A DNA stretch of 44,321 nucleotides. It comes from an uncultured Bacteroidia bacterium (GTDB lineage Bacteria > Bacteroidota > Bacteroidia > Bacteroidales > UBA932). The notes under the pieces were generated by a model that saw only the letters and a program-made list of their open reading frames with translations, ran no database searches and was not told where the DNA came from. The stretch lies in the NCBI GenBank assembly GCA_902780935.1, contig CACZHP010000026.1:1-44321 (forward strand), written 5' to 3'. This document shows positions 1 through 19,625 of this stretch, one piece after another. The translations under genes were made by a program, and so were the position numbers. Numbering within the stretch: the first letter of the stretch is position 1; each line of letters begins with the position of its first letter.

Positions 1-77
1 TTTTGGGCATAAGCACCAAAACTTGCCACCATGCCGATCAGCATGGCAACCACGCAGAATAGCTTCTTGGAAAACAT
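1..77 (-). CDS. 5' end of an exported protein, probably a SusC/RagA-like TonB-dependent receptor (partial)
   Basis: On the minus strand an ATG at 77 opens a frame that begins MFSKKLFCVVAML and ends its signal peptide near GAYAQK, then leaves the window. The peptide has a basic start (KK), a hydrophobic core and an A-x-A-type cleavage site (AYA before QK), so the product is exported. The identification as a TonB receptor is indirect: the mirror copy of this start at 1371 is followed by a fragment of a CarboxypepD-regulatory-like domain, which in Bacteroidota sits at the N-terminus of SusC-like receptors. The start lies inside the inverted repeat, and a promoter at 178-185 faces it, so this copy looks switched on in the orientation sequenced. 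Confidence 0.6.
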   Translation of the reverse strand, partial: MFSKKLFCVVAMLIGMVASFGAYAQ

Positions 78-99
78 GTTTTGATAATTAATTAATTGG
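1..99. repeat. Left inverted repeat of the invertible segment
   Basis: Identical over 99 bases to the reverse complement of 1349-1447. Base 100 is the first mismatch on the inner side. The outer side reaches the window edge, so the full length is unknown. It includes the leader, start codon and signal-peptide codons of the left gene. Confidence 0.92.
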
Positions 100-177
100 T
101 TTGGTAAAATATAGTGTTCAATCAGTGTCTCACAATTAATTATGTCGCAAGTCCGCAAAAGCACACTTGGCAATAAG

Positions 178-185
178 CAAAGGTA
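178..185 (-). promoter_or_regulatory. Promoter -7 element facing the left repeat
   Basis: On the minus strand this reads TACCTTTG, matching the Bacteroidota TAnnTTTG element about 100 bases upstream of the left start codon at 77. A TTTC lies 17 bases further upstream and is a weak -33 match. It sits inside the invertible segment, so inversion would point it at the right-hand repeat. No equivalent promoter fits in the 34 bases between the recombinase stop and the right repeat. Confidence 0.5.
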
Positions 186-387
186 TAAAAACGGTTTTCT
201 AAGAAAGCGTCATTTTGCGTATTACTTTTCTTAAAAAGCGCAAAATATGGTCTGCACTACTCTAAAAAAGCCAACTTTCTGTCTTTATTGCCAAAAAGTT
301 TCCTTTTTGACGAATTGCAAGAGTTAGTCTTGTTTTAGTTAAAATTTATCACAAATAATTAAACCCTGATTAAAACTTGTAACCAAA

Positions 388-1314
388 ATGGAAAAGATTC
401 TGTTCGAGGATGTTTGCCGTCTTTGGGAAGCGGAAAAGTCTAAGGAGGTGAAAGCATCTTCGCTTGCCGCTTATTCCCTTATCGTCGAGCGACAACTACT
501 TCCAAGGTTCAGGACCCTCGAGGATATCACCCCGGAATCCGTTCAGGGCATGATTGAAGAAGATGCCCGTAGAGGACTGAAAACCAACACAATAAAGAGT
601 GTCATCCTGGTCATCAAGATGATTATAAAGTTCTGCGAGAGACGTGGTTGGCTGGAGCGTAGAGACTACATTCTTCGTGTTCCGCCGCATGGCGCCTGGT
701 CTGACCCGCAGACTCTCTCGACGGAAGAGGAAAAGTCTTTTGTCAATTGGTTGAAAGACCATCCTACCCGTCTCAATCTTGGTTTGTTGATTTGCGCGTT
801 TTGTGGATTGAGGATTGGAGAGGTTTGCGCCCTTCGGTGGGAAGACATCGACTTGGGACGCAAGGTGATGCAGGTAAAAAGAACCGTTTACAGAATATAC
901 GACCCGAGAGGGAAGCCAAAAAAATCAAAGCTCTTGATCGGATCTCCCAAGACAGGCACTTCATGGAGGGAAATACCGATAGCTGACTTTCTGGCCGAAA
1001 TGATCGGGAATATTCATAAAAAAGGAAAAGACAAAAAAGATGATTACATACTCTCGGGAGACGCTTCACCGACAGATCCACAGAACGTCAGGAATAATTT
1101 CAGCAGAGTATTGAATACTCTTGGATTCCCCGCGAGAAAAGTACATAGCCTGCGACATACTTTCGCGACCCGCTGCTTGGAAAGTAAATGTGACTACAAG
1201 ACACTCAGCACTCTTCTCGGCCATTCAAATGTGACAACGACACTTAACATCTACGCACATCCCGATATCAATCAAAAGAGAAAATGCATAGAAGACATGA
1301 TTAAGATAATTTAA
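388..1314 (+). CDS. Tyrosine recombinase (phage-integrase family), probable invertase of this segment
   Basis: The 308-residue protein has the usual two parts: an N-terminal SAM-like core-binding domain (about residues 1-105) and a C-terminal catalytic domain. All visible catalytic positions are present: R142 in GLRIGE, H253 and R256 in HSLRHTFATR, H279 in LGHSN, and the nucleophile Y289 in LNIYAH. A lysine in the SPKTGTSWREIPI stretch fits the beta-hairpin catalytic Lys. The protein is about the length of XerC/D and shufflon-type invertases. It is the only complete gene between the 99-bp inverted repeats, so it most likely acts on them in cis. No clear promoter was seen; TAGTCTTG near 325 is a weak candidate. 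A role as the integrase of a mobile element cannot be excluded, but no other element genes are present. Confidence 0.93.
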   Translation: MEKILFEDVCRLWEAEKSKEVKASSLAAYSLIVERQLLPRFRTLEDITPESVQGMIEEDARRGLKTNTIKSVILVIKMIIKFCERRGWLERRDYILRVPPHGAWSDPQTLSTEEEKSFVNWLKDHPTRLNLGLLICAFCGLRIGEVCALRWEDIDLGRKVMQVKRTVYRIYDPRGKPKKSKLLIGSPKTGTSWREIPIADFLAEMIGNIHKKGKDKKDDYILSGDASPTDPQNVRNNFSRVLNTLGFPARKVHSLRHTFATRCLESKCDYKTLSTLLGHSNVTTTLNIYAHPDINQKRKCIEDMIKII

Positions 1315-1348
1315 GGGCTTATAGACCAATTAATTGGAATTTATCAAT

Positions 1349-1447
1349 CCAATTAATTAATTATCAAAACATGTTTTCCAAGAAGCTATTCTGCGTGGTT
1401 GCCATGCTGATCGGCATGGTGGCAAGTTTTGGTGCTTATGCCCAAAA
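1349..1447. repeat. Right inverted repeat of the invertible segment
   Basis: Reverse complement of 1-99 over 99 bases. A separate 12-base palindrome, ccaattaattgg (1326-1337), lies just inside it and shares the AATTAATT motif found in the repeat. The repeat ends exactly where the TonB-receptor remnant begins (1448). Confidence 0.92.
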
Positions 1448-1511
1448 GCCACAGGCCCTGTCGTGGGTGCCGTCGTGCTCTCCGGCGGAGCTAACGCTGT
1501 CACGGATGTGA
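1371..1511 (+). pseudogene. Truncated TonB-receptor start: signal peptide plus out-of-frame CarboxypepD-like fragment
   Basis: ATG at 1371 gives the same signal peptide as the left copy, then runs out of frame and stops after 46 codons at 1509-1511. From 1448, in a different frame, the DNA encodes ATGPVVGAVVLSGGANAVTD, typical of the CarboxypepD-regulatory-like domain just after the signal peptide of SusC-like receptors. The frame change falls exactly at the repeat boundary (1447/1448). Nothing more of the receptor follows; the next base belongs to the stop codon of the opposing EEP/GDPD gene. This arm therefore cannot make a receptor in either orientation, unless other cassettes elsewhere can recombine with it. 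Confidence 0.75.
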
Positions 1512-3242
1512 TCAGTACTCTTTGACGACCTTCAGGAGGCGGTCGGGATAGTTGGAGATGATGGCGTCAACTCCGCAGGAGATAAGGCGCCTCATCTCGT
1601 CGGGATCGTCCACGGTCCAGGTGTTGACCTTCATCCCCTTGGCGTGAGCCTTGTCCACAAGGGCCTTATCCACATTCTCATGCGGAGCGCTGAGCCACTG
1701 CGGAGTGAAATTCAGCAGACCCATGTACTGGTCGAAGTCAGTCTCCCATCCCTCGACGAGGAAAGCCAGGGTGTGGCCGGGATATTTCTCGTTGATATAA
1801 TTCAGTGCCCTCTCGTCGAAGCACTGGATCATAAGGCGGTCACCAAGATTCAAGGAATCAAGCATAGCTATGCAGAGATCCGTAAACTCGTGATATTCAG
1901 GCCAATCCACGCCTTCAACACCTCCATCATAATCAGGATCGCTCTTAATCTCGATGTCGTAATGCATGGGATAGTGGCCATTCTCCTTCGTCCAGGCCTC
2001 GACAGCCTTGATCACCTCAGAAGCAATTGGTTTACAGGCAGGCATACAATGCTTCTCGGGCCAACCCGGATTGTATTTCATTCCCACGTCCCACTTCTGG
2101 ATCTCGCTGTAAGGCAGATGATAAAGATACGTCTTCGGATCCCCGCTCATGACAGGAGTGCCGTCTGGACGCGTGGCGTAACGAGAGTGGAAAAACTTGT
2201 CGTGCGAGAGGACAACTTTCTTGTCCTTTGTGACGCAAAGATCCATCTCAAGGGTGTTGACGCCCAGTTTCACGGAATTGAGCATAGCCGGGAGGGTCTC
2301 TTCAGGGTACAGGCCCATGCCCCCACGGTGCGCCTCGACATCAACGACATACTTCGGAGCCTCAGCTACCGGTTCCACCTTCTTCGGCTCAGCGGGCGCA
2401 CCATAGCGCAGCGTCGCCTTCACAGGATAATGGTCGGAAACAAAGGGAGCATCGAGATAAGCCTTGCGGATCACTTCGAACTTGTCACATCCCTCAAAGC
2501 CCGAATAAAACACATAGTCGATCGGCTTGGAAGAAGTGATCTTGCCCCAATCGTGCCACGTGACCTCATTATCAGTCTCCGGAGCGGTCTGGCGAGCGTC
2601 AGACATGAGTTTTCTCAACTCGGTCAGGCAAGGATCCTCGGGAATGACATTCATGTCTCCTGTGAGGATCATCGGATACCCCTCTGGATTCATCGCTCCG
2701 ATGCGGTCAACAAGCAGGAGCAATCCTTTCCGACGAGCCTCTTTTCCCACATGATCCAGATGGGTGTTGACAAAGTAAAAATGCCGGTCGGCTGCCTTGT
2801 CATAGAGCAAGGTCCAGGTCGCTGTACGGCGGCAAGCGGCATCCCAGCCTAATGAAGGCTCGAAAGGAGTCTCCGAGAGCCAATATGTTCCCCACTCCTT
2901 AAGCTCTATCCGGTCGGTGTCGTAGAAAACAGACATGTGTTCCCCGTCATGGATGCCATCCTCGCGCCCAACTCCGACACATTTGTAGCCAGGGCAGTGC
3001 TCGACAAAGTAATCCAATTGGAAATCAAGAGCTTCCTGCACGCCAAAAACAGCGGGGCGCTGGTCGAGGATCATAGCGCAGGCGGCGTCACGACGGTTCT
3101 CCCAGACATTGTCACCGTCGTCAGCAGTGCCGTAACGGACATTGAAGGACATGACAGGGAGGGTCTCGACGGAAGTCTTGTCACCACTCTTGCAAGAGAA
3201 GAGAAGCAACGGCAAAAGGGCAAGAAGGAGGATTCGTTTCAT
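1512..3242 (-). CDS. Lipoprotein fusion of endonuclease/exonuclease/phosphatase and glycerophosphodiester phosphodiesterase domains
   Basis: The 576-residue protein starts with a lipoprotein signal (lipobox LLLFSCKS), so it should be anchored in the cell envelope. Residues ~28-280 form an EEP domain with all its landmarks: [26 protein letters not shown] and SDHYPV. Residues ~298-575 form a GDPD domain: [30 protein letters not shown] and the acidic EIKSDPD. The GDPD half should hydrolyse glycerophosphodiesters; the EEP half could be a phosphodiesterase or sphingomyelinase-like enzyme, substrate unknown. It is the last gene of a five-gene minus-strand operon, 41 bases after the ROK kinase. Both domains look catalytically complete. 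Confidence 0.9.
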
Positions 3243-3283
3243 TTTTTAATGGTATTAGATTCTTCGCTACGCTCAGAATGACA

Positions 3284-4120
3284 CTACTTTATGGGACCAC
3301 AAAGATGGGCTGCGCCGAGGAAAGCGGCGTGAAGTTCCTCGGACTGGAACACGTCAAGGTTCTCTACACTCTTGGGATAAGGGAACTCCCTGATCACCTT
3401 CCACATAGGCTCCTTGAATAGAGGATATGCGTTGGCTATCGAGCCACCGAGGATGATCACGGCAGGGTCATATACGAACATTATCATTTGCACCAGCTTG
3501 CCGACATGTCCACCGAACTCTTCCATTATCGCAAGGGCTTCGGGATCGCCGTTTGAGGCCGCAACAGCGGCATCCTTGCCCGTTGTGCCCTTGCTCACGA
3601 AGTAGCGGCTGCTGCAGTAGAACTCATAATCCTTGTCAAGATACGGTACGCTGCCGATCTCCCCCGCCCCGGCGTTGCGCCCGCGGTAAAGATGGCCATC
3701 GATGACCAGTGACCCGCCGACACCCGTCCCGAGGGTCACGCAGAAGGCTTCCTTGTAGCCGGTTCCCCGCCCGAAAGTCGTGACTCCCAGGGCGAAGCAG
3801 TTGCAATCGTTGTCCACAGACGCGGGAATATGGTACCGGTCCTCAAGCTTTTCCTTAAGATGGACCTCCTTCCAGGAAGGGATTCCTACGACATTATAGA
3901 CTATCCCTTTGTCGGTGTCAACCACCGAAGGGACTCCTATCCCAATCCCATCGACTTCAGGAGTCATCAACTCATCAATCATGCGGTAGATGTGATTCAG
4001 CACTTCCTCCTCACTCCCTCTGGAGCGGCATGGTTCCGAGATTATTCGCTCCACTTGCCCTCCGGGAAGGACTGTCGCCACGCGGACATTTGTTCCGCCA
4101 AGGTCTATCGCGATTCTCAT
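3284..4120 (-). CDS. ROK family sugar kinase
   Basis: The 278-residue protein begins with the ASKHA phosphate-1 motif DLGGTNVR, carries the catalytic Asp in SVDNDCNC (about residue 103) and the glycine-rich GTGVGGSLV motif. It should phosphorylate a sugar, probably a hexose such as glucose or mannose, in the cytoplasm. Unusually, the zinc-binding CGCGxxGC signature of typical ROK proteins is missing: after GAGEIGSV comes a short stretch with a single cysteine (EFYCSSRYF), and the usual His of ExGH is Ser. It lies 14 bases after the GH63-like hydrolase, which suggests that it primes the sugar released by the operon's glycosidases. Confidence 0.88.
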   Translation of the reverse strand: MRIAIDLGGTNVRVATVLPGGQVERIISEPCRSRGSEEEVLNHIYRMIDELMTPEVDGIGIGVPSVVDTDKGIVYNVVGIPSWKEVHLKEKLEDRYHIPASVDNDCNCFALGVTTFGRGTGYKEAFCVTLGTGVGGSLVIDGHLYRGRNAGAGEIGSVPYLDKDYEFYCSSRYFVSKGTTGKDAAVAASNGDPEALAIMEEFGGHVGKLVQMIMFVYDPAVIILGGSIANAYPLFKEPMWKVIREFPYPKSVENLDVFQSEELHAAFLGAAHLCGPIK

Positions 4121-4134
4121 AAAACAATTAATAA

Positions 4135-5736
4135 TTAAAGTGTTATCTTACCGCTCTTCTCCACATGGACGGTGGCGGACTGTCCGTCTCCCCAACTTAC
4201 GGTGAGATCAAAAGGAATATTTGTGGTTACAGTTATCACTGGCTTCTCGGACAAGGACTTCCTCGCGGCGGCCTTCAAAGAGACCACTCCCTCCGGGCCG
4301 AACGGATAGCGCTCGATTCCATGAGCCTCGGTCTGGTGGACATCCCACTCGACCTTCCCTTCGCTGAAGTCGGACTGTATTCCGAGAATATACTCTATGA
4401 AGACGGCAATCGGCGGAAGACCGGTCCAGCCCACAAAATCCTTGCGTGCCATGAAGCCGGGAGCGACCTCCTCCGGAGCGTAATACTCCCAGAAAGTGCC
4501 TGTGTTTTTCCACACGTCGAACACGTTGCCGAAGTGGTTATTGGCTATCTCCATCGCCTCCTTGCGGTAGCCTCTTTCCCAGAGACCGCTGATCACCATG
4601 TAATTGGCTCCGGGCCATATACCTCCCTGCCAGTAGCGGCCTTTGGGATTGTATTTCGGATGGTCGGCGGACAGGGAAGGAACCCTGTGGGTCCTAGAGA
4701 ACTCCGCATCTTCGGAAAGATGTGCTACCAGACGGTCAAGCCTGTCCTTGTCCAGGACATCCGTCTTGAGAGCCCAGAAAGCGGAAATCCCCTTTGTGGA
4801 GTTGCGGGAGCCGTCCCCATACACATCGTACAGGAAGCCGGTCTTCTCGTCCCACATGTTCTCGTTGATCCACTTCTTGAGGAACTTCATCTCATCCTCC
4901 ATTTCCTCTATCTCCTGCCAGCGCTCGATGTAGAAACCAATCTGCATAAGGCAGTCATTGACAAGATATTGCTGGAGGTTGGTGTCCAGCCATGTCATAT
5001 GGCCGTTGGAATAGATCTGGTTGTAGCCTTCCGGGACGCGGGGCATGTTGTCCATGCCGGTTCCCCAGCCGCTGGACCAGTAGGTCCCGTCCTTCCAGGT
5101 CCTGTTGAGTTTCCACCACTGGGCGTAAGCGACCAAGGCCGGAAACACTTTGTGGAGCCTGTCAATATCCCCAAACTGCTTGTAATAAAGAAGTTCCGCC
5201 CATGGAAGGAGGTTCGGGCCGGTAGAGGTCGGATCGTAACGCTCGAAACAGTCGGAGCCGTCGGCGCGGATTTCCCTGCAGATGAACCCGTCCTGATGCT
5301 GCTTCGCGTAGAAATTGTCAAGGGTCCCCTGGAACGGGAAATAACGGTACCCGTAGCGGGCGAACATCATCATGAAGGAATCGTCCCACATGAATATATT
5401 CCCGTTGTAAGCGACATCGAGATAGGGAGACACGAATCCGGATCCTTCCTGGGGCTGACGGATGTTGCCGACAGCGATCTTCCAGGCATGCCAGTACATC
5501 TCAATCTCCTTCTCATGCCCCTCCCAAATTGGTGCCGGGAGGATCTTCTGGGCCTCCTTGAAAGGCTTGGGAGCCTTGGTCACCGGCTTCATTGTCCGGA
5601 AAGAGTTTTCCGAGACGAAGATATTCTTCACGTAAGTATTCTTGTACGGGAGGTCATAGGGCCCTGACTTCAGGTCCTGGGCCAATGCGGTGGCGGCGCA
5701 GCAAAGCATCAACGCCAGAGGCAGTAAACGTCTCAT
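4135..5736 (-). CDS. Secreted GH63/mannosylglycerate-hydrolase-like (alpha/alpha)6 glycosidase
   Basis: The 533-residue protein has a cleavable signal peptide (MRRLLPLALMLCCAATALAQ). Conserved blocks of the GH63/GH37-like superfamily are visible: WDDSFMMMFARYGY, CFERYDPTSTGPNLLPWAE, SGWGTGMDNMPR, GGIWPGANYMVISGL and GTFWEYYAPE. The acidic residues in the TGMDN and WEYYAPE blocks are the likely catalytic region. A small beta-rich tail follows (from about residue 450). It probably removes an alpha-linked glucose or mannose in the periplasm. The gene overlaps the upstream phosphatase gene by four bases (ATGA), showing translational coupling. Substrate is not determined by sequence. Confidence 0.8.
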   Translation of the reverse strand: MRRLLPLALMLCCAATALAQDLKSGPYDLPYKNTYVKNIFVSENSFRTMKPVTKAPKPFKEAQKILPAPIWEGHEKEIEMYWHAWKIAVGNIRQPQEGSGFVSPYLDVAYNGNIFMWDDSFMMMFARYGYRYFPFQGTLDNFYAKQHQDGFICREIRADGSDCFERYDPTSTGPNLLPWAELLYYKQFGDIDRLHKVFPALVAYAQWWKLNRTWKDGTYWSSGWGTGMDNMPRVPEGYNQIYSNGHMTWLDTNLQQYLVNDCLMQIGFYIERWQEIEEMEDEMKFLKKWINENMWDEKTGFLYDVYGDGSRNSTKGISAFWALKTDVLDKDRLDRLVAHLSEDAEFSRTHRVPSLSADHPKYNPKGRYWQGGIWPGANYMVISGLWERGYRKEAMEIANNHFGNVFDVWKNTGTFWEYYAPEEVAPGFMARKDFVGWTGLPPIAVFIEYILGIQSDFSEGKVEWDVHQTEAHGIERYPFGPEGVVSLKAAARKSLSEKPVITVTTNIPFDLTVSWGDGQSATVHVEKSGKITL

Positions 5737-7667
5737 TTCTTGACAATTCGTTTAATGGTGCGAGCGATCTCCGTGTTGAGATAAGCGCCCTGGAAATGCT
5801 GGGAGCCGGGTCCGTAAGCGAAGACGGGGATCACGGCGGGAGTGTGGTCGTCGGAATTGTAGATCGCGAGCACATGGCCGGTCTTGAGGTCTCCGTCGAG
5901 GATTGTCAGTCCGCCGGTCTCATGGTCGGCGGTCACGACCACGAGAGTGTGGCCGTCCTCGTCGGCGAACTTCATGGCAGCTGCGACAGCGCGGTCGAAA
6001 GCGAGCTGCTCGATCACCGATGCCGGGAAGCAATCGGAATGGCCGGCATAGTCGATCTTGGCTCCCTCCGCCATCAGGAAGAAGCCCTTCTTGGACATCC
6101 CGCTGAGCTTCTTGATCGACTCCTTGGTGATCTCGGCGAGCAGGTCAAGGGTTTGCTCCTCGGCGTACGCCCTCATCCTCTGGTCGATCGCGATAACCTT
6201 TCCGGGTACCTTGGAAGTTCCGAGAGCGTCGTAGGTGTAGGTATATCCTTTGGCCTTGATGCCGGCCATCAGATCCAACTTGTCCTGGCGGGGATCCTCG
6301 AAGTAATCTCTGCCACTACCGGCCAGGAGGTCGATCTTAGCGGTGGTGGCGAGGAAACTTGTGATCAGCTCGGTACTGTCGCGCTCGGAAGTGTGGCCGT
6401 AGAACACAGCCGGGGTGGCGTCGGCGATGTCTCCCATGGTGATGACACCTGTGGCCTTGCCCATGTCGTGGAAATAGTCAGACAACGGAGACACCTCTGC
6501 GGAGCCGTCATAATTGGACGCGATGTGCCTGGTCCAGGAAGGCTCACCGGTGGCGAGAGTGCTTCCTCCCGAAGCGGAGTCAGGGATGAAGTCGTTCTCG
6601 GGATTAGCGAACTGGAAGCCGATGTGCTTCATTTTCAAAAGGGACAAATCCCTGTTGTTGGCGAAAGCTCCGGCAGAGATCTGGTTCAGACCCATGCCGT
6701 CGCCGATCAGGAAGATGACATTCTTGATCTTCTTGTCCGAACCGTCGTTCTTGTAGGTAGGAGTGTAGGTCTCTATCCTCTTCGTGAGCTGGAGCTTCTC
6801 ATTCTGGAAGCCCTTGAAATCACGGGTAGCCTTGTCGAGCTTGTGGGTCCCGGTGACCCCAGCCTGAACCTTGTGCTGCCCCATCCAGAAATTCTTGTTG
6901 ACCCAGTCATCGTAGAAGAGGGCGCATTTGGCGGGATAATCGGTGTTGATTATGTCAACCCCCATCTTCTGGAAGGTGAAATATACGGTCGTGCCCTCCG
7001 GAGCGTCCCAGAAGCGGATCGGCTTCCCGACGGCATGAGCGGCTTCGATTGCTCCCTGGACCGCGAAAAGCTCAGGATCGATCATGCGCCCTTTGCCGTT
7101 CCACTTCTTGGCGAACTTGCGGAAGTCGGTGCTGATCAAAGCGATACGCTTGAGCTGCTCGGGAGTGTAGGTTATCTTGCCACCAGTGAAATCACCGTCA
7201 AACCACACCCACTCCGGATATTTTCCGAAGTCCTCAGGATCAGGGATATCGCCGGTAAAGACAATCTTGACACCATTGCTGGTAGTGAACACGTCCGGGA
7301 ACTCCTCCGCCAGAGCCAGGACACCCGGAAGCGATTCACCGGTCTTCAGGTCAACCATCAGCTGCAGACGGTCGGAGCTGCCTTCCCACATGCGCCCGCC
7401 ATTCTCACGGAACGTCTTGACTATAGGCTCGATGTACATCGTCCTCAGGCTGCGGTCGGCGCTCACGTCCTCACGATTGTGAGCCACGAGAATCTCCCCG
7501 TCATGGAGGAACACATCCGCCTCAATCGAGGTGCAATGCTGTGAATATGCCTCCCAGAAAGGAGCCGTACGATTGTAGTCGTTGTGGGAATGGTAAGCTA
7601 TGGGGCGCTGCGCCTGGAGCGTCAGGCACAACGCCAGCGAAGCTGTTATGATCAATAATTTACGCAT
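5733..7667 (-). CDS. Secreted fusion of AIM6-like phosphodiesterase domain and alkaline phosphatase
   Basis: The ATG at 7667 is chosen because it gives a proper signal peptide (MRKLLIITASLALCLTLQAQ). Residues ~22-250 resemble the AIM6/GDPD-PI-PLC-like fold: HSHNDYNR, SIEADVFLHDG, ILVAHN and MVDLKTGES. Residues ~290-640 are an alkaline phosphatase: IGDGMG, the phosphorylated Ser in DSASGGSTLATG, GHTSERDS, EGAKIDYAGH, TADHETGG and a late DDHTP histidine. All metal-binding stretches are present. One polypeptide could thus cut a phosphodiester and then remove the phosphate in the periplasm. It starts 8 bases after the GH92 stop, in the same operon. Confidence 0.88.
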   Translation of the reverse strand: MRKLLIITASLALCLTLQAQRPIAYHSHNDYNRTAPFWEAYSQHCTSIEADVFLHDGEILVAHNREDVSADRSLRTMYIEPIVKTFRENGGRMWEGSSDRLQLMVDLKTGESLPGVLALAEEFPDVFTTSNGVKIVFTGDIPDPEDFGKYPEWVWFDGDFTGGKITYTPEQLKRIALISTDFRKFAKKWNGKGRMIDPELFAVQGAIEAAHAVGKPIRFWDAPEGTTVYFTFQKMGVDIINTDYPAKCALFYDDWVNKNFWMGQHKVQAGVTGTHKLDKATRDFKGFQNEKLQLTKRIETYTPTYKNDGSDKKIKNVIFLIGDGMGLNQISAGAFANNRDLSLLKMKHIGFQFANPENDFIPDSASGGSTLATGEPSWTRHIASNYDGSAEVSPLSDYFHDMGKATGVITMGDIADATPAVFYGHTSERDSTELITSFLATTAKIDLLAGSGRDYFEDPRQDKLDLMAGIKAKGYTYTYDALGTSKVPGKVIAIDQRMRAYAEEQTLDLLAEITKESIKKLSGMSKKGFFLMAEGAKIDYAGHSDCFPASVIEQLAFDRAVAAAMKFADEDGHTLVVVTADHETGGLTILDGDLKTGHVLAIYNSDDHTPAVIPVFAYGPGSQHFQGAYLNTEIARTIKRIVKK

Positions 7668-7675
7668 ATCATCTT

Positions 7676-10537
7676 TTATTTGTGCCAAATAACGTTTTCA
7701 GGGATTCTCTCGAACTTCTCCCCTTCCTGCGGCTTCCACGCCCAGAAGAGGGACTGTCCCTCGTAATCCTCGAGGTAGGTCAGACGGAACGGGTGCATGC
7801 CTTTCATCAGGGGGATGCGTCCGGTCGCCGTGTAGGCCGCATGGGAGCCGTCATTGTCAACGACAATCCGACCGTCAATCTCCAGAAGGGCGCCATCGTC
7901 GCTTCGCAGTGAGAAATCCCAGATCCCGTCCGAAGGGATGTCAATATATCCGGTGAATATATATCCGAAATGATCCTCGTCCGGAGCGTCCGTAATCGAA
8001 GGAGAGGGCATGACCCCGGATGACAAAGCCTTGCTCGCGCGAACGTCAGCCGTCTTTGAGAAGAGGCCGGTGTGGTAGGAGTACCTGCACCCTGCCGAAA
8101 GCCCGGAGACCTTGGCGGCGGGGACATTTATGGCGGGGACAGCGTGGATCCTCATCACCTCGCTCTCCGCCAGACCTTCCTTGAAGGCCTTCGCTGAGAG
8201 GACGAAGTCCCCGAATTTCTTGAAAGGAGCGGTGTACAGAGGCGAATTCCCGTCTGGGACGGTCCCGTCAAGGGTGTACCGGATCTCAGCCCCCTCAGTC
8301 CGACTCCGAAGGTCGATCACGAAGTCTCCCTCGTAGTATGTGGGGTCGGAGGGGACGTAAGGCATTGAGACCTGGTCCCCGGAAGTTAACGAATATGGGG
8401 CCTTAAGACCGTCGCGGTCGCTTACCGGATCCTTTGAGAGGGTGAAGGTGAGTTCGCCGCCTTCTTTAAGCTGCTCAAAGGTGACGAACAAGGCGTCCAA
8501 GGGCTCTCCGTTGTAGGTAACTGACTTGATGTAAGGATATTCCGGATGATCCGCTGTGATGACGAGTTCCTTCTCGAGATCCACCTGCAGGATGGCTTTC
8601 TTAAACAGCGGAGCCGAGAGGACGAACTCCCCGGTGCCGGGGCAGATAGGGTATATTCCCAAAGAAGACAGGACGTACCAGGCAGACATCTGGCCGCAGT
8701 CCTCGTTGCCGCTGATGCCCTCGGGAGTCGGGGAATACAGGTCCTGAAGCAACTGGCGCACAAGCTTCTGGGATTTGCAGGGCTGGCCGAGGAAATTGTA
8801 CAGATATGCCATGTTGTGGCTGGGCTCATTGCCGTGAGCATATTGCCCGACAAGCCCCGTCATGTCGCCGATGTCTGTCCCGGGATCCCTCTCGTCATAA
8901 GTAAATAGCGAGTCGAGTGCGGCCGTCATGGCTTCCTTGCCTCCCATAAGAGCGGTCAACCCGTAGAAATCGTGAGGTGCGAAGAACCGGTACTGCCATG
9001 GAATACCCTCAGTGTAGTCCCTCGAATCGCCGATCGGATTGAACCTCGGCATCCAGTTCCCTTCCGAGTTCCTGGCCCTCATGAAACCGGTGGAAGCGTC
9101 AAATATGGCTGTGTATCGCCTGGATCTGGCGTAATATTCCTTTGCGAGATCTTCCTTGCCGGCCAACTCCGCCATCCTGCCTATGCACCAGTCGTCATAG
9201 GCGAACTCAAGCGTCTTGGAGACCGACTCGGCCTGGATGTTGGCGGGGATGTATCCGAAGGCGTTGTAAGGATCGGAGCTGGCGTCGGTATTGGACGCTT
9301 TGACCATGGCCTCAAGGGCATCCTCGAAATCGAACGAGTGGAGATGAATCCAAGCGTCCGCCATCATGGAGACGGCATGGTAGCCAATCATGCACTCGGT
9401 GTCGGAGCTCGCCAGCGGCCACATGGGAAGTCTCCCGCCCTTGTCGGACATGTCCATGAGACTGGACACCATGTCACGGACCAGATTGTCGTTGATCAGG
9501 GTCATCAGAGGGTTCCAGCTCCGGAAAGTGTCCCACAAGGAAAGCGTGGAATAGAAAGCCCCGCCCTCGGGAACGGTGGCAATCTCCTGACGGAAATCCC
9601 GGTAACGGCCGTCCACATCATCACATCGGTTAGGGACTATCATTGTGTGGTAAAGAGCTGAGTAGAAATTGGTTCTATCCTCTTTGCTTCCCCCCTCTAC
9701 CTTTATGGCTCCGAGGGCCTCTGCCCAGGTATCGAAAGCCTCAGTGCGGATGGTGTCGAAATCCTTATCGCCAACCTCGGTCGCGAGATTACGCGCGGCA
9801 CCGTCAGTATCAACTTGTGAAAGTCCCACAGAAACAGTCATTTCCTTCGTCGTCTCAGGGAAGGTGAGAAGCATCCTGTCTCCTTCAAGCTTTTCAGCCG
9901 AAGAGAAAGGGACCGAGAAAACGGCATTGAAATAAATCTGCCTGTCAGGAGCCCAACCGCTGACATGACGGCCTCCCTTGACAACAGAATCTCCCTCCAT
10001 GTCCATGAATATCCGGTCAGGATGGGTTTCCCCGATATTATAGGCCGCATCAATCAGGATATGGCGTTCCCCTTCTCCCTTGAACGTGTAGCGATGGACT
10101 CCGGCTCTGGTGGTAGCGGTCAGTTCCACTGTAAGGCCAGCTTCCGGGAAGTCCACCTTGTAGTACCCGGGACAGGCTTTCTCATCGTCATGAGAGAATG
10201 GCAGGCTTATGGGAATATCTTTCCCGATGAAAGGAAGGAAAAGGAAATCACCGAGATCCGCACAACCGGTACCGCTGATGTGGGTGTGCGAGAAACCAAG
10301 GATGGAAGCATCACTATAGTGGTAGCCAGAACATCCGTCCCAAGTCCTGTTCCTGGTGTCAGGGCTCAACTGGACCATCCCGAAAGGGGTGGTGGCACCG
10401 GGATATGTATGACCATGAAAACCGGTCCCGACAAAGGGGTCCGCATACGAGACAATATTTGTCTCAGAAGTTCTAGAGCATGCCGCTAAAGCGACAGATA
10501 AAACGAGGAACAGGGATGATCGGATAATTGGTCTCAA
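7676..10537 (-). CDS. GH92 alpha-mannosidase lipoprotein with chitobiase-C-like and PA14 domains
   Basis: The GH92 catalytic region spans about residues 30-700: DPFVGTG, HTYPGATTPFGMVQ, GFSHTHISGTG, GNEPSHNMAYLYN and GNEDCGQMSAWYVLSSLG. GH92 enzymes are calcium-dependent exo-alpha-mannosidases. After it come a CHB_HEX_C-like Ig domain (EIRYTLDGTVPDGNSPLY) and a C-terminal PA14-like domain (GIWDFSLRSDDGALLEIDG), both probably carbohydrate-binding. No in-frame ATG precedes the signal. TTG at 10537 gives a clean lipoprotein signal (RPIIRSSLF to LAACS), and a promoter sits just upstream; a GTG at 10618 would add a second hydrophobic segment and is less likely. First gene of a five-gene operon. 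Confidence 0.92.
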   Translation of the reverse strand: MRPIIRSSLFLVLSVALAACSRTSETNIVSYADPFVGTGFHGHTYPGATTPFGMVQLSPDTRNRTWDGCSGYHYSDASILGFSHTHISGTGCADLGDFLFLPFIGKDIPISLPFSHDDEKACPGYYKVDFPEAGLTVELTATTRAGVHRYTFKGEGERHILIDAAYNIGETHPDRIFMDMEGDSVVKGGRHVSGWAPDRQIYFNAVFSVPFSSAEKLEGDRMLLTFPETTKEMTVSVGLSQVDTDGAARNLATEVGDKDFDTIRTEAFDTWAEALGAIKVEGGSKEDRTNFYSALYHTMIVPNRCDDVDGRYRDFRQEIATVPEGGAFYSTLSLWDTFRSWNPLMTLINDNLVRDMVSSLMDMSDKGGRLPMWPLASSDTECMIGYHAVSMMADAWIHLHSFDFEDALEAMVKASNTDASSDPYNAFGYIPANIQAESVSKTLEFAYDDWCIGRMAELAGKEDLAKEYYARSRRYTAIFDASTGFMRARNSEGNWMPRFNPIGDSRDYTEGIPWQYRFFAPHDFYGLTALMGGKEAMTAALDSLFTYDERDPGTDIGDMTGLVGQYAHGNEPSHNMAYLYNFLGQPCKSQKLVRQLLQDLYSPTPEGISGNEDCGQMSAWYVLSSLGIYPICPGTGEFVLSAPLFKKAILQVDLEKELVITADHPEYPYIKSVTYNGEPLDALFVTFEQLKEGGELTFTLSKDPVSDRDGLKAPYSLTSGDQVSMPYVPSDPTYYEGDFVIDLRSRTEGAEIRYTLDGTVPDGNSPLYTAPFKKFGDFVLSAKAFKEGLAESEVMRIHAVPAINVPAAKVSGLSAGCRYSYHTGLFSKTADVRASKALSSGVMPSPSITDAPDEDHFGYIFTGYIDIPSDGIWDFSLRSDDGALLEIDGRIVVDNDGSHAAYTATGRIPLMKGMHPFRLTYLEDYEGQSLFWAWKPQEGEKFERIPENVIWHK

Positions 10538-10563
10538 AACTTTAGCATTATAATGGTAGATAG

Positions 10564-10571
10564 CAAAGATA
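10564..10571 (-). promoter_or_regulatory. Probable promoter -7 element of the GH92 operon
   Basis: Minus-strand TATCTTTG matches TAnnTTTG and lies 26 bases upstream of the TTG start at 10537. Its position inside the longer open frame argues against the GTG start at 10618. The -33 element is unclear. Confidence 0.5.
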
Positions 10572-10631
10572 ACCAAAGCAGAGACAATTAACGGGACAAA
10601 ACCGCTATCCTGCACCACAAATCACGCAAGA

Positions 10632-13232
10632 CTAACGCTTCTTTTTCAAGGCGGCCGCTTCCTTCCGGGCTTTCTTTTTTTCGTAACGGGCTTTGTAACG
10701 CTCGAGGAACTTCTGTTCCCTGGCGTCAGTCTTTGCTTTCGCGGCCTTCATCTTCTCAAATTTGACACGCTGCCTCTCGGCGTTCTTCTCCGCCTTCCTG
10801 GCGGCTTTCTCCGCGTCTTTGGCGTCAAGAGCGGCCCATCTGGCCTCTTTCTTCGCGGCCCTGGCCTGGCGCAGGCTGTCCTGGGCAGCCTTCTTGGCTT
10901 CCCTCTGAGCCTTCTTCTGGGCCTGCTCAGCCTCCAAATCGGCGGTCAAGGCCTTTCTGAGAGAATCCATCCTCGCAATCCTCAACGAATCAGCCAAGGC
11001 CTTTGCCCTTGACAAGGAATCAGCGACTGCAAGCGAATCCGAGACCGCGGCGCCTAAGGAATCAAGCGGCGCCGAAAGAGCTGCAAGCGAATCTACCTGA
11101 GCGGCTGGAGCCTGTTTCGCATCCTTCGCATCCTTTGCCGGTTGCACGGCGGCCTCCGCCTTATCCCCTTCACCGCCAGCGGCTTCCGCATTTCCGGCGG
11201 CTTCCTCATCTGAGACAGCTTCCTCGGCCGCCTGCTCTTCAAGAGCCTCCTGGGCCTTCCTGAGCTCCTCCATCGCCTGGCGCTCCGCCTCACGAGCCTG
11301 TTTCAGGGAATCGGCGCTGGCGAGCATCTTGTTGATATTCGCTATATGACCAGGAAAATATTTCTCGGTCTGCAGGAACTTGGCTCGGGGGACGGCCTCG
11401 TACCTGCCCCTCTCGGTCTTCCTCGGAGTGTACACCACGACATCCTCCGGCCCTTTAGGACGTTTTTCCGGCTGCCATTCGAAGCCCTTGAGAATCCTCT
11501 CGTCTTTCTTCAGCTGGACCGCGGGATAGGCGTCACTCTTGACTTCCTCATAATAGACCAGGTCATTGATATTCCCGTTCAGGAACGACGCTGAAAGCAT
11601 CTTCGACTCGAACTTGTTGACCGTGGCGAAAGCGCCCTTCTCCTCCAGGAAGAAAAGTCCGGAAGCGCCTCCCATGGAGTCGAATCGACGGAGTGCCCCT
11701 GTCGAGTCAAAGAAGGCCATCATCTCGGTTCCCCTTATCTGGTCGAAACAGATGGAATCCTCCTGGACAATTATGAAGGCGTTGGACATCAGGCTCGCCT
11801 TGTCCAGAGCCTTGTTCTTCAAGACGACCGTTATACTGTCGGCGGAATACTGGCGGCGGACCTCGTTCCAGACAATCGGTGAGCGGTAGAGCCTCACCAA
11901 AGAGTCAAGATCGTTGTAAACGAGGGAGTCGCACACGACCTGCATGTCCTTTCGGAACACCTTTACATTCCTCAGTCCCAACAGGAAACCTATCTTGGTG
12001 GAGTCAGGAGGGCCGGCCTCAAGGGAATCGACCTTCGGCTCTGGCGGATCGGGGACCTGGAGAACCGGAACCGGCCCGGAAAAAGGCCCGCTCTTCGGCC
12101 TGGCACCTCTCCGGTTCGGATCTTCCTCTTCCATCTTCTTCTTAGCCTCCTCAGCAGCGGAAACAGCTGCTTCATAAGCGTTTCGCCTGTACTCCATCAC
12201 GGGATCGATGGCCAGGTCTTCCAGACGTTTCTTGGACTTGTTCAACTCATTCTCGGACACGTCGCACCGGGGTAAAGCCCAATAAAGGAGCTCGTCTCCA
12301 CGGACATACACAGTGTCCTTGGTGCCTTCCTGCTCGAAAACGGCGATGACCGACGGATCCCTGAGCATCCTGATACGTTCCAGGGAGTCAATGTATTGCA
12401 TGTAACCTGCGACGGCCGCTACGTTGCGGGTAGTGTCGAGAAGCTCGACATTGCCGAACATCTCGGCATTATTGAAAGCCCGGTCGTAGACCAAGGTATC
12501 GGACCAAGCCTCCTGGTTCCTTGTCAAGAGATGCACGTTCCGGGTGAAATTGAAAAGCTCCGCCTTCTTGTCATAGGAGCCGGAGTTAGCGGACAACATA
12601 TTCTCTCCCCTCCAGGCATGCGTGCCTGTACCAAATATGGCCACCGAAGTCTCTGTGTTGAAGTCCAGGTCGTCCGTCTTGACAAACACCGAGTCAGTGT
12701 ACATGTTGACATCCCGGTAGAAACGGAAAGTCTTCGACTTGGCGTCATAACGGCCCACGTCACTCTCGATGATCTGGCCGTCTTTGTCCCTGAAAGAACC
12801 GCCGTTACGGAACACGGCCACACTGTCACTGGTGTTGTAGTCCAGATTCATGGTCCGCAAGGTATTCCTGTCCTTGTCCTGAAGCTGGACCAGGGATCCC
12901 CGGAACTCAGCCAGGCTGGCGCCGATGTAATAATCCAGATTATCACTCGTCAGGACGGTCTGGTTCTGGAGGATACGGACATGACCGATGGCCTTGATGA
13001 CATTGGCATCGACATCCCACAGGGCTGTGTCGCAGACCAGTTTGGTGGCGTTGTGCTCGAAGCGGGCGTTCCCGATGGCTTTCCTGAAACTATGGCCGTC
13101 AACATCCTCCTGAAGCAGCTTCTCGCACCCGAGAAGCCGGACAAGGCTGTCTTTTCCATCCTGGAACTGGGCCTGGGCGGCCAGCGGGAGAAGGAAAAGA
13201 AGGACTGAATATGCTAGACGGCGGAAAGACAT
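10632..13232 (-). CDS. OstA-like (LptA/LptD N-domain-like) envelope protein with long charged tail
   Basis: The 866-residue protein has a signal peptide (MSFRRLAYSVLLFLLPLAAQAQ) followed by repeated beta-jellyroll OstA units (about residues 30-300 and 400-560), with phrases such as NATKLVCDTALWD, TSDNLDYY and VCDSLVYND that mark the LptA/OstA fold. In Gram-negatives this fold carries LPS through the periplasm. The last ~240 residues are unlike the OstA core: Ala, Glu, Asp, Ser and Lys-rich with DSL repeats, ending in a strongly basic helical stretch (EKKKARKEAAALKKKR). The gene starts 4 bases after surA and is the last of the guaB operon. No beta-barrel domain follows, so it is not a full LptD. 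Confidence 0.85.
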   Translation of the reverse strand: MSFRRLAYSVLLFLLPLAAQAQFQDGKDSLVRLLGCEKLLQEDVDGHSFRKAIGNARFEHNATKLVCDTALWDVDANVIKAIGHVRILQNQTVLTSDNLDYYIGASLAEFRGSLVQLQDKDRNTLRTMNLDYNTSDSVAVFRNGGSFRDKDGQIIESDVGRYDAKSKTFRFYRDVNMYTDSVFVKTDDLDFNTETSVAIFGTGTHAWRGENMLSANSGSYDKKAELFNFTRNVHLLTRNQEAWSDTLVYDRAFNNAEMFGNVELLDTTRNVAAVAGYMQYIDSLERIRMLRDPSVIAVFEQEGTKDTVYVRGDELLYWALPRCDVSENELNKSKKRLEDLAIDPVMEYRRNAYEAAVSAAEEAKKKMEEEDPNRRGARPKSGPFSGPVPVLQVPDPPEPKVDSLEAGPPDSTKIGFLLGLRNVKVFRKDMQVVCDSLVYNDLDSLVRLYRSPIVWNEVRRQYSADSITVVLKNKALDKASLMSNAFIIVQEDSICFDQIRGTEMMAFFDSTGALRRFDSMGGASGLFFLEEKGAFATVNKFESKMLSASFLNGNINDLVYYEEVKSDAYPAVQLKKDERILKGFEWQPEKRPKGPEDVVVYTPRKTERGRYEAVPRAKFLQTEKYFPGHIANINKMLASADSLKQAREAERQAMEELRKAQEALEEQAAEEAVSDEEAAGNAEAAGGEGDKAEAAVQPAKDAKDAKQAPAAQVDSLAALSAPLDSLGAAVSDSLAVADSLSRAKALADSLRIARMDSLRKALTADLEAEQAQKKAQREAKKAAQDSLRQARAAKKEARWAALDAKDAEKAARKAEKNAERQRVKFEKMKAAKAKTDAREQKFLERYKARYEKKKARKEAAALKKKR

Positions 13233-13236
13233 CGTA

Positions 13237-14628
13237 TTACTCGCTGAACTTCGAAGCCCACGAGGAGCGGCGGAACTCGCAGTCCTTGAACAGGGGGTCG
13301 ATGACTATCCTGGTGTCTTTGATTTTCTTCTCCAGGAACTTGTCGATAGCCTCCTGCTGCTTCTCGCGCCTCACCTCTTCCTGAAGCTGGGAGAAATCAG
13401 ATTCGAAGGTGGCGGTGTGGGCAGGTATTATCTTGTCCACACGGATGATCTTATAGTTGGTCTTTCCGACCACGAAATCCTTGAACTGATCCTGGCGGCC
13501 GTCGTTGTCCGTCGATTCAACCGGCTGGGAGATCTCACCCTCTTTCAAGTCCTTGATGGCTTTGTAGTCCTCCGGTTTGAGCTGGTCGATCTCGAAATAC
13601 GCCGAGCCGGTATTCGGATCCGCCATCTGGCCTCCGTTAGTCCGGGTGGGAGCGTCCTGCGAGTAGAAATTCGCCGCCATCTTGAAAGTCACCGCACCGT
13701 TAAGAATCTCCGTGCGGAGGCTGTCCAAAGTCTTGAAAGCCTTCTCTTTGTCAGCAGAGGTGTAATGCGGCTTCATAAGGATGTGGCGAGCGTTGAACAT
13801 GTCCCCCTTCTTCTCAAGGACTTCGATGATATGGAACCCGTCGGGAGTCTCGACTATCTGCGAGATCACTCCGGGCTTCAAAGCCATTGCGGCATCCGAG
13901 AAGGCCGGCCAGTAAATTGATTTCGAAGCCATGCCGAGCTCTCCTCCCCTCCTGGCGTTACTCGGATCCTCCGAATACATCCTGGCCAGAGTCGAGAACT
14001 TCTCCCCGTTGATGATCCTTTCCCGGAGCTCCAGAAGTTTCTCGCGCACAGCGAGATTGGCGGCCTCCCGGTCCGGATAGAGGCAGATCTGGCTGAGCTG
14101 GTACTTTATAGGGATAATGGGAAGGTTCTTGGCGTCAACCGTGTCCATATATTCCTTGACATCATAAGGAGTCATGTCAGGAACCTTCTTGATGATCTCC
14201 TGCTGCTCCTGCTGCGTGAGGCTCATGTCCTCATACTGCTTCCTCCAATCCTCACGGAGGCGGTACAACGGCTTCCCGAAATACTGCTCCAACTGTTCCT
14301 GGCCACCCAGGATAGTCATGGTCTGGTCAATCCTCTGGGAAAGCATCGCCTCGACATTGTCCTGTTTGACAGTCAAAGAGTCGATCCTCGCCTGCATAAG
14401 CAAGAGTTTGGACTCGAGCATGGACTCCAGCAGCTCGCAACGAACATTCTTGTCCGAGCTCAAGCCCTGGGCTCCCCTCTCCTTGACTGAAGCCTCGATG
14501 TCCGAGATAAGAATCACCTCATTGCCGACGACCGCAACCGATTTGTCTATGACGTTGTACTTCTGGGCGAAAAGACCCGCGCCAGAGGCGAGGATCGCCA
14601 GCAGGGTGACTATTGTTTTCTTTGTCAT
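13237..14628 (-). CDS. SurA-like periplasmic peptidylprolyl isomerase/chaperone
   Basis: The 463-residue protein has a signal peptide ending near GLFAQ, an N-terminal SurA-like helical domain (VAVVGNEVILISDIEASV, about residues 28-165) and two parvulin (PpiC) domains: one with FSTLARMYSEDPSNARRGGELG (about 170-270) and one with NARHILMKPHY and TNGGQM (about 275-395). SurA escorts outer-membrane beta-barrel proteins through the periplasm. Its gene overlaps the upstream PpiC-like lipoprotein by four bases (ATGA) and precedes the OstA-like gene, which supports a role in outer-membrane assembly. Confidence 0.9.
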   Translation of the reverse strand: MTKKTIVTLLAILASGAGLFAQKYNVIDKSVAVVGNEVILISDIEASVKERGAQGLSSDKNVRCELLESMLESKLLLMQARIDSLTVKQDNVEAMLSQRIDQTMTILGGQEQLEQYFGKPLYRLREDWRKQYEDMSLTQQEQQEIIKKVPDMTPYDVKEYMDTVDAKNLPIIPIKYQLSQICLYPDREAANLAVREKLLELRERIINGEKFSTLARMYSEDPSNARRGGELGMASKSIYWPAFSDAAMALKPGVISQIVETPDGFHIIEVLEKKGDMFNARHILMKPHYTSADKEKAFKTLDSLRTEILNGAVTFKMAANFYSQDAPTRTNGGQMADPNTGSAYFEIDQLKPEDYKAIKDLKEGEISQPVESTDNDGRQDQFKDFVVGKTNYKIIRVDKIIPAHTATFESDFSQLQEEVRREKQQEAIDKFLEKKIKDTRIVIDPLFKDCEFRRSSWASKFSE

Positions 14629-15488
14629 TTCTTAGAGTAGATTTCAAATTTCTCTTTGGCCTTGGCGTCTTCTATCAAGTCTTGTTCCAAAGTCGTGAGA
14701 AGCTTGTGCTTTCTCCCGCTTATAATGATATCCTTTATCCTGTCCTCACAGAACTCCACGGGAGGGACTTCGCCGGCCTTTACCATGTCAGCTATAAAAG
14801 CCACGAGAAGGAAACCGTCACCATCCTTGATCTCGATGAACTTTCCGTTCTTCTTTGAAAGCATCTCGATATAGTCCACACCGAAATCCCCGGCAAGGGT
14901 GGCGGCATCGATCCAGGTGTCCGAAAGATCGGCGTAGCGCTGGGCGGAATTGAAAGCGAGGCTGTCAGCTGCGATCACGTCCGCTACATCATCCGAAGAC
15001 ATCAACTTCTTGATTTTCTGCAGGTTCGGTGAGTCCTCGGATATTTTCATAAACCGGGCTTTGACGATGGGCCTCTCCAGCTTGAAATTATCCTTATGGG
15101 CCTCGAAATACTCATCCACCTCTTTCGGGGAAACGGTCGTGTCGAGCCGCTCGGAGATGAACCTCTGCTCGAATCGGTACCTCAGGAGAGACTGCCTATA
15201 GTCCTCAAGCTCCTTGGAGACATCCTTCTCCTCCTTGCTGAGTTTCTGCTCGGCGATGTCCTGGAAAGCCTTCCCGGTCGCCCAGGAGTTGATGTAGAGA
15301 TTAACCAGATTGAGGCTGTCCTCGGGACTGATCCCGTTCGGGATGACCTTCTCGAGCTCGGACAGGTACAGCTTATGATCCCCCAGTTTCGCGACCACCT
15401 CCCCGTCGTGGATGAACGACTGGAAAGCCTTGCAAGAGGGAAGCAGCGCCGCGAAGATGACGACGAATATGGGGAACCTCCTGGCCAT
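14625..15488 (-). CDS. SurA N-domain/PpiC-related lipoprotein
   Basis: ATG at 15488 is preferred over an in-frame TTG at 15491. The 287-residue protein has a lipoprotein-type signal (IFAALLPSCKAF) and then VVAKLGDHKLYLSELEKVIP, the opening of SurA/PpiC chaperone domains. A helical middle contains SPKEVDEYFEAHKDNFKL, typical of the SurA N-domain; no complete parvulin active-site signature is evident. It lies between guaB (3 bases apart) and surA (4-base overlap), so it probably acts with SurA on outer-membrane protein folding, as a chaperone rather than a proven isomerase. Confidence 0.75.
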   Translation of the reverse strand: MARRFPIFVVIFAALLPSCKAFQSFIHDGEVVAKLGDHKLYLSELEKVIPNGISPEDSLNLVNLYINSWATGKAFQDIAEQKLSKEEKDVSKELEDYRQSLLRYRFEQRFISERLDTTVSPKEVDEYFEAHKDNFKLERPIVKARFMKISEDSPNLQKIKKLMSSDDVADVIAADSLAFNSAQRYADLSDTWIDAATLAGDFGVDYIEMLSKKNGKFIEIKDGDGFLLVAFIADMVKAGEVPPVEFCEDRIKDIIISGRKHKLLTTLEQDLIEDAKAKEKFEIYSKK

Positions 15489-15491
15489 CAA

Positions 15492-17011
<1,520 letters not shown>

Positions 17012-17031
17012 AACGGCTACCAACTTGACGT

Positions 17032-17150
17032 GCCGTGATTGCTATTCGATTAGTATTCAGCTATTTCCCGAAATGAGCTTCTTCGGGACGGAGAGCTCAG
17101 ATACAGAACAGCCTGATTATCAACCGATGAAGCTCCACCGCCTGACAATT
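17032..17150. repeat. 119-bp intergenic repeat, copy 1
   Basis: Reverse complement of 19436-19554 with about 106 of 119 positions equal by eye, and related to 28470-28563. A 43-base stretch (GAAGAAGCTC through CGAATAG on the minus strand) is identical between copies 1 and 2. It lies upstream of the guaB promoter. No reading frame or known RNA family was recognised. Confidence 0.85.
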
Positions 17151-17236
17151 AATGAGTTACGGAATTGAACTGGGAAACTGTGGTTTTTCAAGCGGATTAT
17201 TCGTAAATTGCGGCAGATAAAAAGAATTGAAAAACT

Positions 17237-18220: not shown

Positions 18221-18290
18221 GTCTAATTGGTCCTGGACTGTAAAGATAATCCAAAATTCATTATCTTAGCGACAAAGTAATGATCCAGCC

Positions 18291-19406: not shown

Positions 19407-19435
19407 AGCTAATCGCTTCAATTTCGCAACATGTT

Positions 19436-19554
19436 GATTGTCAATCAGTGGAGCTTCACCAATTGATAATCAGGCGGTTCCGTATCTGAGCTCTCCGATT
19501 CGAAGAAGCTCATTTCGGGAAATAGCTGAATACTAATCGAATAGTAATCACGGC
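19436..19554. repeat. 119-bp intergenic repeat, copy 2
   Basis: Inverted relative to copy 1 and the same length. Contains GAGCTCTCC and GAAGAAGCTC, which could form a short stem. It ends 40 bases upstream of the -7 element of the first BIG2 lipoprotein gene. Confidence 0.85.
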
Positions 19555-19572
19555 TCAAACAAGTCGATGGTA

Positions 19573-19602
19573 TTGATACTTTATTGTAAATGATTATCTT
19601 TG
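19573..19602 (+). promoter_or_regulatory. Promoter of the first BIG2 lipoprotein gene
   Basis: TTG (19573-19575), a 19-base gap and TATCTTTG (19595-19602), followed by the start codon at 19626. This rules out the longer frame opening at 19590, whose start lies upstream of the -7 box. Confidence 0.75.
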
Positions 19603-19625
19603 TGAAGATCATTATCAATTACGCT

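Follow-up and report, generated by a model that had tools for sequence, protein, structure and literature searches.

A candidate invertible cassette, recombinase gene included, between SusC/SusD operon arms in a Bacteroidales genus

In the Hin/fljBA system of Salmonella the recombinase gene and a promoter both lie inside the inverting segment; Hin is a serine recombinase, and the system drives a flagellin and a repressor. The shufflons of Bacteroides thetaiotaomicron place a recombinase between divergent susC genes.

Published accounts supply the rest of the background. Hin and FljB are named in Salmonella (PMC11868660), and the B. thetaiotaomicron shufflons are described as phase-variable nutrient-receptor systems (PMC12548429). 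The SusC/SusD (ragA/susC) shufflon of Bacteroides fragilis chooses the expressed outer-membrane protein pair by inversion; a site-specific invertase, Tsr0667, makes inversions at three SusC/SusD clusters and at nine other regions, and one shufflon has been replaced through transfer between strains (PMC5729914, PMC4747536). Region EE of B. fragilis has an invertible promoter, and downstream of it the start codon of susC homologues falls within inverted repeats (PMC5729914). Gut "invertons" are stretches of DNA flipped between inverted repeats of 10-40 nt, often near SusC/SusD genes (PMC11892184, PMC10939037); in a defined gut community the invertase genes near invertons are generally not positioned to be driven by the inverton promoter (PMC11892184).

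The locus considered here occupies the first positions of a 44,321-nt stretch of contig CACZHP010000026.1 ("the window"), from an uncultured member of the Bacteroidia. It is probable, in our judgment, that approximately positions 109-1339 constitute a self-contained invertible cassette, made up of a recombinase gene (R) and an outward promoter, which sits between SusC/SusD operon arms and is flipped by R at short cores, so selecting an arm. A preliminary description of this DNA had already proposed an invertible switch with its own recombinase inside. Comparison between species leaves that as the best reading, with the amendment that the arms are those of SusC operons and that one of them is only a stub.

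The recombinase, its arms and its two ends

R was described at the outset as one intact tyrosine recombinase between the repeats, and so it is: a protein of 308 amino acids that matches the Phage_integrase profile (PF00589, E 3.2e-27) and carries a SAM-like N-terminal domain. Eleven PDB sequences were matched, an Int protein, XerA and XerD among them. The residues of the tyrosine recombinase set R..HxxR..H..Y (R142, H253, R256, H279, Y289) are unchanged in all five aligned recombinases. Assignment to the XerC or XerD equivalogs is rejected by the NCBIfam cut-offs (83.8 bits against 335 for XerC, 77.3 against 330 for XerD). R occurs in 12 of 400 genomes of the genus (E <= 1e-85), at 18 loci. 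It is intact in every one of these and dN/dS is low in close pairs (for the window and its closest relative, L165, dN is 0.016, dS 0.263 and the ratio 0.06), which shows R to be intact and under selection. Nine of the 18 loci have named records, all of them Bacteroidales or Bacteroidia bins; three titles mention a ruminant stomach, and names of the RUG and RUI type denote rumen sets.

Table 1. Positions of the features of the locus in the window
Feature	Position	Strand	Basis or remark
Left arm: core, leader, ATG (77-75), signal peptide of the left gene	1..108	-	runs off contig end
P end: from R start to left arm, promoter-like toward left gene	109..387	-	conserved among same-site relatives
TACCTTTG, match to TAnnTTTG	178..185	-	108 nt upstream of left ATG
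Tyrosine recombinase R, intact	388..1314	+	Phage_integrase profile; dN/dS
T end: inverted 11-nt arms AATTAATTGGA / TCCAATTAATT with 9-nt spacer, candidate recombinase site	1328..1358	.	7 such 11-nt pairs in whole window
Right arm: core, leader, ATG (1371), signal peptide	1340..1447	+	repeat comparison
46-aa stub ORF: SusC signal peptide, then deletion and frameshift	1371..1511	+	comparison with relatives
Endonuclease/exonuclease/phosphatase-GDPD fusion, convergent neighbour, landmark of the chromosomal site	1512..3242	-	domain search

The two inverted arms are 98% identical over 1-108 and 1340-1447, with a perfect part (1-99 = 1349-1447). Inverted 20-mer pairs within 2 kb number 80 in the whole window, all from this one repeat, and zero in ten of ten base shuffles: the similarity of the arms is far beyond chance. 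Each arm consists of leader, ATG and signal peptide MFSKKLFCVVAMLIGMVASFGAYAQ, facing outward; that the same leader and signal peptide are joined to both ends of the R segment is, for the assembly, certain. The preliminary description had the repeats hold the leader, start codon and signal peptide of a secreted protein, and the arms bear this out in both cases as to their contents and direction; the right-hand reading frame comes to a dead end after 46 codons, with no whole secreted protein behind it. The deletion that truncates it lies at 1447/1448, the stub abuts the stop codon of the convergent neighbour gene, and in another frame the DNA after the right arm reads ATGPVVGAVVLSGGANAVTDV, an N-terminal stretch of SusC. 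Judged by its relatives, the stub is the remnant of a lost right-hand SusC operon. (The neighbour itself combines an endonuclease/exonuclease/phosphatase domain and a glycerophosphodiester phosphodiesterase in one protein; where other genomes of the genus have a match, usually only one half is matched. No RNA family reached its gathering score in window positions 1-1600.)

The two ends of the R segment differ. The stretch ahead of R, the P end, is conserved within each chromosomal site. TAnnTTTG is the consensus of the Bacteroidota -7 box; pointing outward it was found 14 times, in nine of 18 P ends, and pointing inward six times, about five being expected per strand from base shuffles; the loci, being related, are not independent of one another. 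(The P region of L165 entered this count in shortened form; its TATCTTTG was read by eye.) The motif is absent from the P end of L168 and from those of seven of the eight loci at the second chromosomal site described below, and none was found in the 18 T ends (60 nt each). Only 25 nt separate the end of R from the right arm, so a promoter would hardly fit in the T end. The inverted arms of the T end recur as 10-nt versions in L165 and L070; in L010 not even 8-nt arms are seen there, and at the P core there is no counterpart of the inner palindromic arm present at T. What, then, is the minimal site held in common? The two signal peptides of L070 differ and the AT-rich core is the longest stretch identical between its arms, so this core, about 20 nt upstream of the ATG, seems to be the minimal shared site; in the sister genome G066 the arms have 28 of 36 nt in common around it.

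Layouts and orientations in related species

R is found at two chromosomal sites: between the GDPD gene and a GH92 gene (the window and nine more loci), and between AroF and LpxK (eight loci, including L010, which is in the same genome as the window; AroF, LpxK, TyrA and ATPase are labels that we gave by eye from the proteins). In all 17 genus loci besides the window the 5' end of R faces the 5' end of a divergent SusC gene, and in the window and its relatives the inverted repeats overlap susC starts. Two complete divergent SusC-SusD operons surround R in L010 and L077; the second SusC arm is cut by a contig end in L167 and L176 and reduced to a stub in the window, L165, L168, L070 and L073. 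No second arm was seen in the remaining nine, very short remnants having been checked in some of them; L078 and L072 may keep 10-16 nt of one. The GDPD/GH92 site also occurs as an operon without R (L059) and with a 59-67-nt remnant of the R 5' end (L060).

At the window locus itself the SusC/SusD identity comes from the signal peptide and the stub only; the full genes are in relatives. Both SusC proteins of L010 and that of L011 score above the TIGR04056 cut-off, the L165 SusC has a Plug domain, and SusD families are matched in L010, L060, L165 and L077 (the third operon gene of L060 matched no Pfam family). In G066, whose R is 96% and whose neighbour gene is 98% identical to those of the window and which has the same orientation, a third gene, SusD and a SusC of 1049 amino acids lie to the left of R, in the place of the window's left arm. 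The left gene of the window is presumably a SusC gene as well.

Among 80 named loci (of at least 565 listed), SusC adjoins the 5' end of R in 11: the nine closest, L070-L078, and also L108 and L109. That is two of the 71 more distant ones, 13 of which have less than 400 nt upstream of R, where an adjoining SusC could not show. An inverted repeat spans R in five of the 80 (L070, L073, L077, L108, L146). (Three observations on individual loci: L108, at 1806-10760 in Pedobacter sp. ASV28, of another family, has a 42% similar recombinase flanked by two divergent SusC genes, which agree in all of their first 30 residues and of which one is followed by a SusD gene; none of ten loci with L108-like recombinases, 60-81% similar and from 395 genomes of the phylum, showed SusC alongside, their flanks being at most about 1.5 kb and three of them starting within 700 nt of a contig end. 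L174, at 10892-19901, is unusual in having two SusC genes in tandem beside the promoter end of R. An in-frame stop interrupts SusC at 3300-3370 of L059, in genome G017, by mutation or assembly error.)

The orientation of R relative to its flanks is not constant. At the GDPD/GH92 site six loci (the window, L165, L168, L072, L074, L078) have its 3' end toward GDPD, and three (L070, L071, L073) have it toward the GH92 side; the flanks of the tenth, L167, are rearranged, and it was counted with the GDPD-pointing group. At the second site two loci (L010, L175) have the 3' end toward LpxK; in the other six (L011, L076, L077, L172, L174, L176) it is directed toward AroF, or away from LpxK. The tree of R calls for at least two orientation changes relative to the flanks at each of the two sites. 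Across these assembled loci, both orientations are shown to be present among related species.

Where does the change take place? Over 100 nt from the core, the outer arm of L059 matches the T-side arm of L070, at the 3' end of R, with 99% identity. The inner 60 nt of L059 are 75-84% identical to the P ends of L070, the window, L165 and L168 and 62% to the T end of L070 (to other P ends the figures are 64-73%, hardly above background); a longer alignment matches L059 to the P side of L070 over some 120 nt inward of the core, and window 1-245 is 78% identical to L059. On these alignments the same outer arm is shown to be joined to different inner ends, P-like in L059 and T in L070, with the change-over at the AT-rich core.

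The mechanism that we favor would operate as follows. A cassette of about 1.2 kb, comprising the tyrosine recombinase gene and, at its 5' (P) end, an outward promoter, would be flanked by two arms, each of them the leader and 5' end of an operon for SusC/SusD outer-membrane uptake. R would recombine the AT-rich cores (around CCAATTAATTA, some 20 nt before each ATG) and invert the cassette, so that the promoter would serve now one arm, now the other. At the two-operon loci L010 and L077 a flip would thereby choose between two receptors. In the window the right operon has decayed to a stub, and inversion there would turn the left operon ON or OFF; the orientation as assembled would be ON. We infer that R is the inverting enzyme, that the P-end promoter is active and that flipping goes on within one population. 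The upstream region of R would travel with it, and a flip would change only which flank the promoter-like end faces; the earlier suggestion that the transcription context of R itself changes at each flip does not fit, as its immediate upstream context would stay the same. A larger proposal can be offered tentatively, as possible rather than probable: that the cassette decides heritably which of two operons is expressed and that the silent one is prone to decay, yielding a one-armed ON/OFF switch whose promoter, in the OFF state, would be directed at a dead stub and at the neighbour gene opposing it, and whose inverted-cell junction may be what the contig end displays.

Could R be a passenger, in loci rearranged by homologous recombination between two inverted operons and by exchange between species? 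The material for such events is at hand: the inverted repeats formed by operon arms can be long (in L167, 1594 nt at 83%), L010 and L077 seem to differ by inversion of a block, and in L072 (3061-10872) the third gene, SusD, SusC and R are inverted relative to GDPD (80%) as a block in comparison with L073 (3056-10872). The L072/L073 pair is moreover a mosaic (third gene 97-100%, SusD and SusC 82-99%, R 61-68%), which suggests exchange of a receptor operon between species. Against R as a passenger stand its integrity in all 18 loci and its low dN/dS in close pairs, loci with no visible second operon included, and the L059/L070 change-over, which falls at the core instead of being spread along the arms. 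As the whole explanation we consider it unlikely. Two observations go unexplained by simple cassette flipping: some operons have moved with R relative to the flanks (L072/L073, L010/L077), and in L165, L168 and L070 the promoter end has the MHSKK signal peptide whichever flank it faces. By the evidence of these comparisons, recombination between operons is at work besides the proposed flipping, and exchange between species probably is too.

The contig end and the left arm

Position 1 of the window is the end of its contig, C26, in a bin of 82 contigs that is 97% complete. When 80 of the 164 contig ends (both ends of C1-C40) were compared for exact terminal matches of at least 15 nt, 19 pairs were found: ten overlap by exactly 99 nt, nine by 29-95 nt and none by more. 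The preliminary description spoke of a perfect 99-bp inverted repeat. The repeat is there; its perfect length is not a biological measurement, because 99 nt is this assembly's usual contig-end overlap, and 99 bp as a biological repeat length is ruled out on that ground. The sequence to the left of the perfect repeat is likewise no biological measurement. A shufflon has three or more recombination sites; a search of the bin, from which the left flank is missing, for copies of the repeat gave two matches, both of them the window's own arms.

Searches of the same bin for another place for the left flank, with the 100-nt arm, a 30-nt pattern and a 20-nt MHSKK pattern, found none. SusC and SusD of L060 have their best copies there at 63% and 62%, inside contig C12, and the left gene seems to be absent from the bin. 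(That part of C12, G000:C12:57062-66962, holds two tandem SusC/SusD-like pairs, the best matches of the SusC-like genes to L060 SusC being 63% and 50%; the second SusC is matched in two different frames.) The left arm may be read in two ways. The left gene may carry the same signal peptide as the right; this is favored by the fact that the perfect match ends exactly where the stub deletion starts (at 1447/1448, by comparison with L165 and L168). Or the contig end may be a junction formed in inverted cells, favored by the different signal peptide (MHSKK) at the left side of the sister G066.

A more skeptical reading makes the left arm a product of assembly, by fold-back or wrong merge, with no inverted repeat of such length in the molecule. 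The perfect part is exactly one assembly overlap long and ends at the contig end, and G066, with its other signal peptide, has arms that share 28 of 36 nt around the core; these points speak for it. It is nevertheless improbable: P is joined to the MFSKK leader in L059 too, and comparable arms lie well within contigs in L010, L077 and L070. One variant, in which the left end is a P-to-right-arm junction from inverted cells, would in fact support inversion. Least credible of all is that R and its repeats are a small mobile element inserted between genes, for although tyrosine recombinases are often part of such elements and R is present at two chromosomal sites, the ten recombinases of the GDPD/GH92 site group together in the tree (support 90/93), so that R looks inherited in place, its polarity to SusC is the same in 17 loci, and the repeats are the 5' ends of genes, not the ends of an element.

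Significance and comparison with known systems

If the invertible-cassette reading is true, SusC/SusD phase variation, studied mainly in human Bacteroides, would extend to a Bacteroidales genus represented here mostly by ruminant-gut bins, in a compact form in which one small piece of DNA is both flipping enzyme and promoter. The series from two operons, through one operon and a stub, to loci without the recombinase would offer natural stages of possible switch decay. Receptors of the SusC/SusD type are important in the use of nutrients and may also have a part in the entry of phages. Titles and abstract openings, in the part of the literature listed, yielded no description of this locus.

How does it compare with what is known? 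It resembles the B. fragilis SusC/SusD shufflon in having inverted repeats over susC starts and in the proposed choice of a receptor by inversion. In B. fragilis large gene-bearing segments move behind an invertible promoter, whereas here a small piece, promoter and recombinase, would move between two fixed divergent operons; and Tsr0667 serves many regions whereas R would serve its own cassette (the two are set side by side by description). The gut invertons have short repeats of 10-40 nt, and share with the cassette proposed here the flipping between inverted repeats beside SusC/SusD genes. The nutrient-receptor shufflons of B. thetaiotaomicron possibly have the same layout as the window. 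Hin shares the placing of recombinase and promoter within the inverting DNA; unlike R, it is of the serine type and has no SusC arms. That precedent in Salmonella qualifies the early remark that the layout is unusual: a recombinase within its inverting segment is not new, and the compact variant looks to be. The kind of system is already known from the B. fragilis SusC/SusD shufflon; the locus adds a new compact layout to it and no new category.
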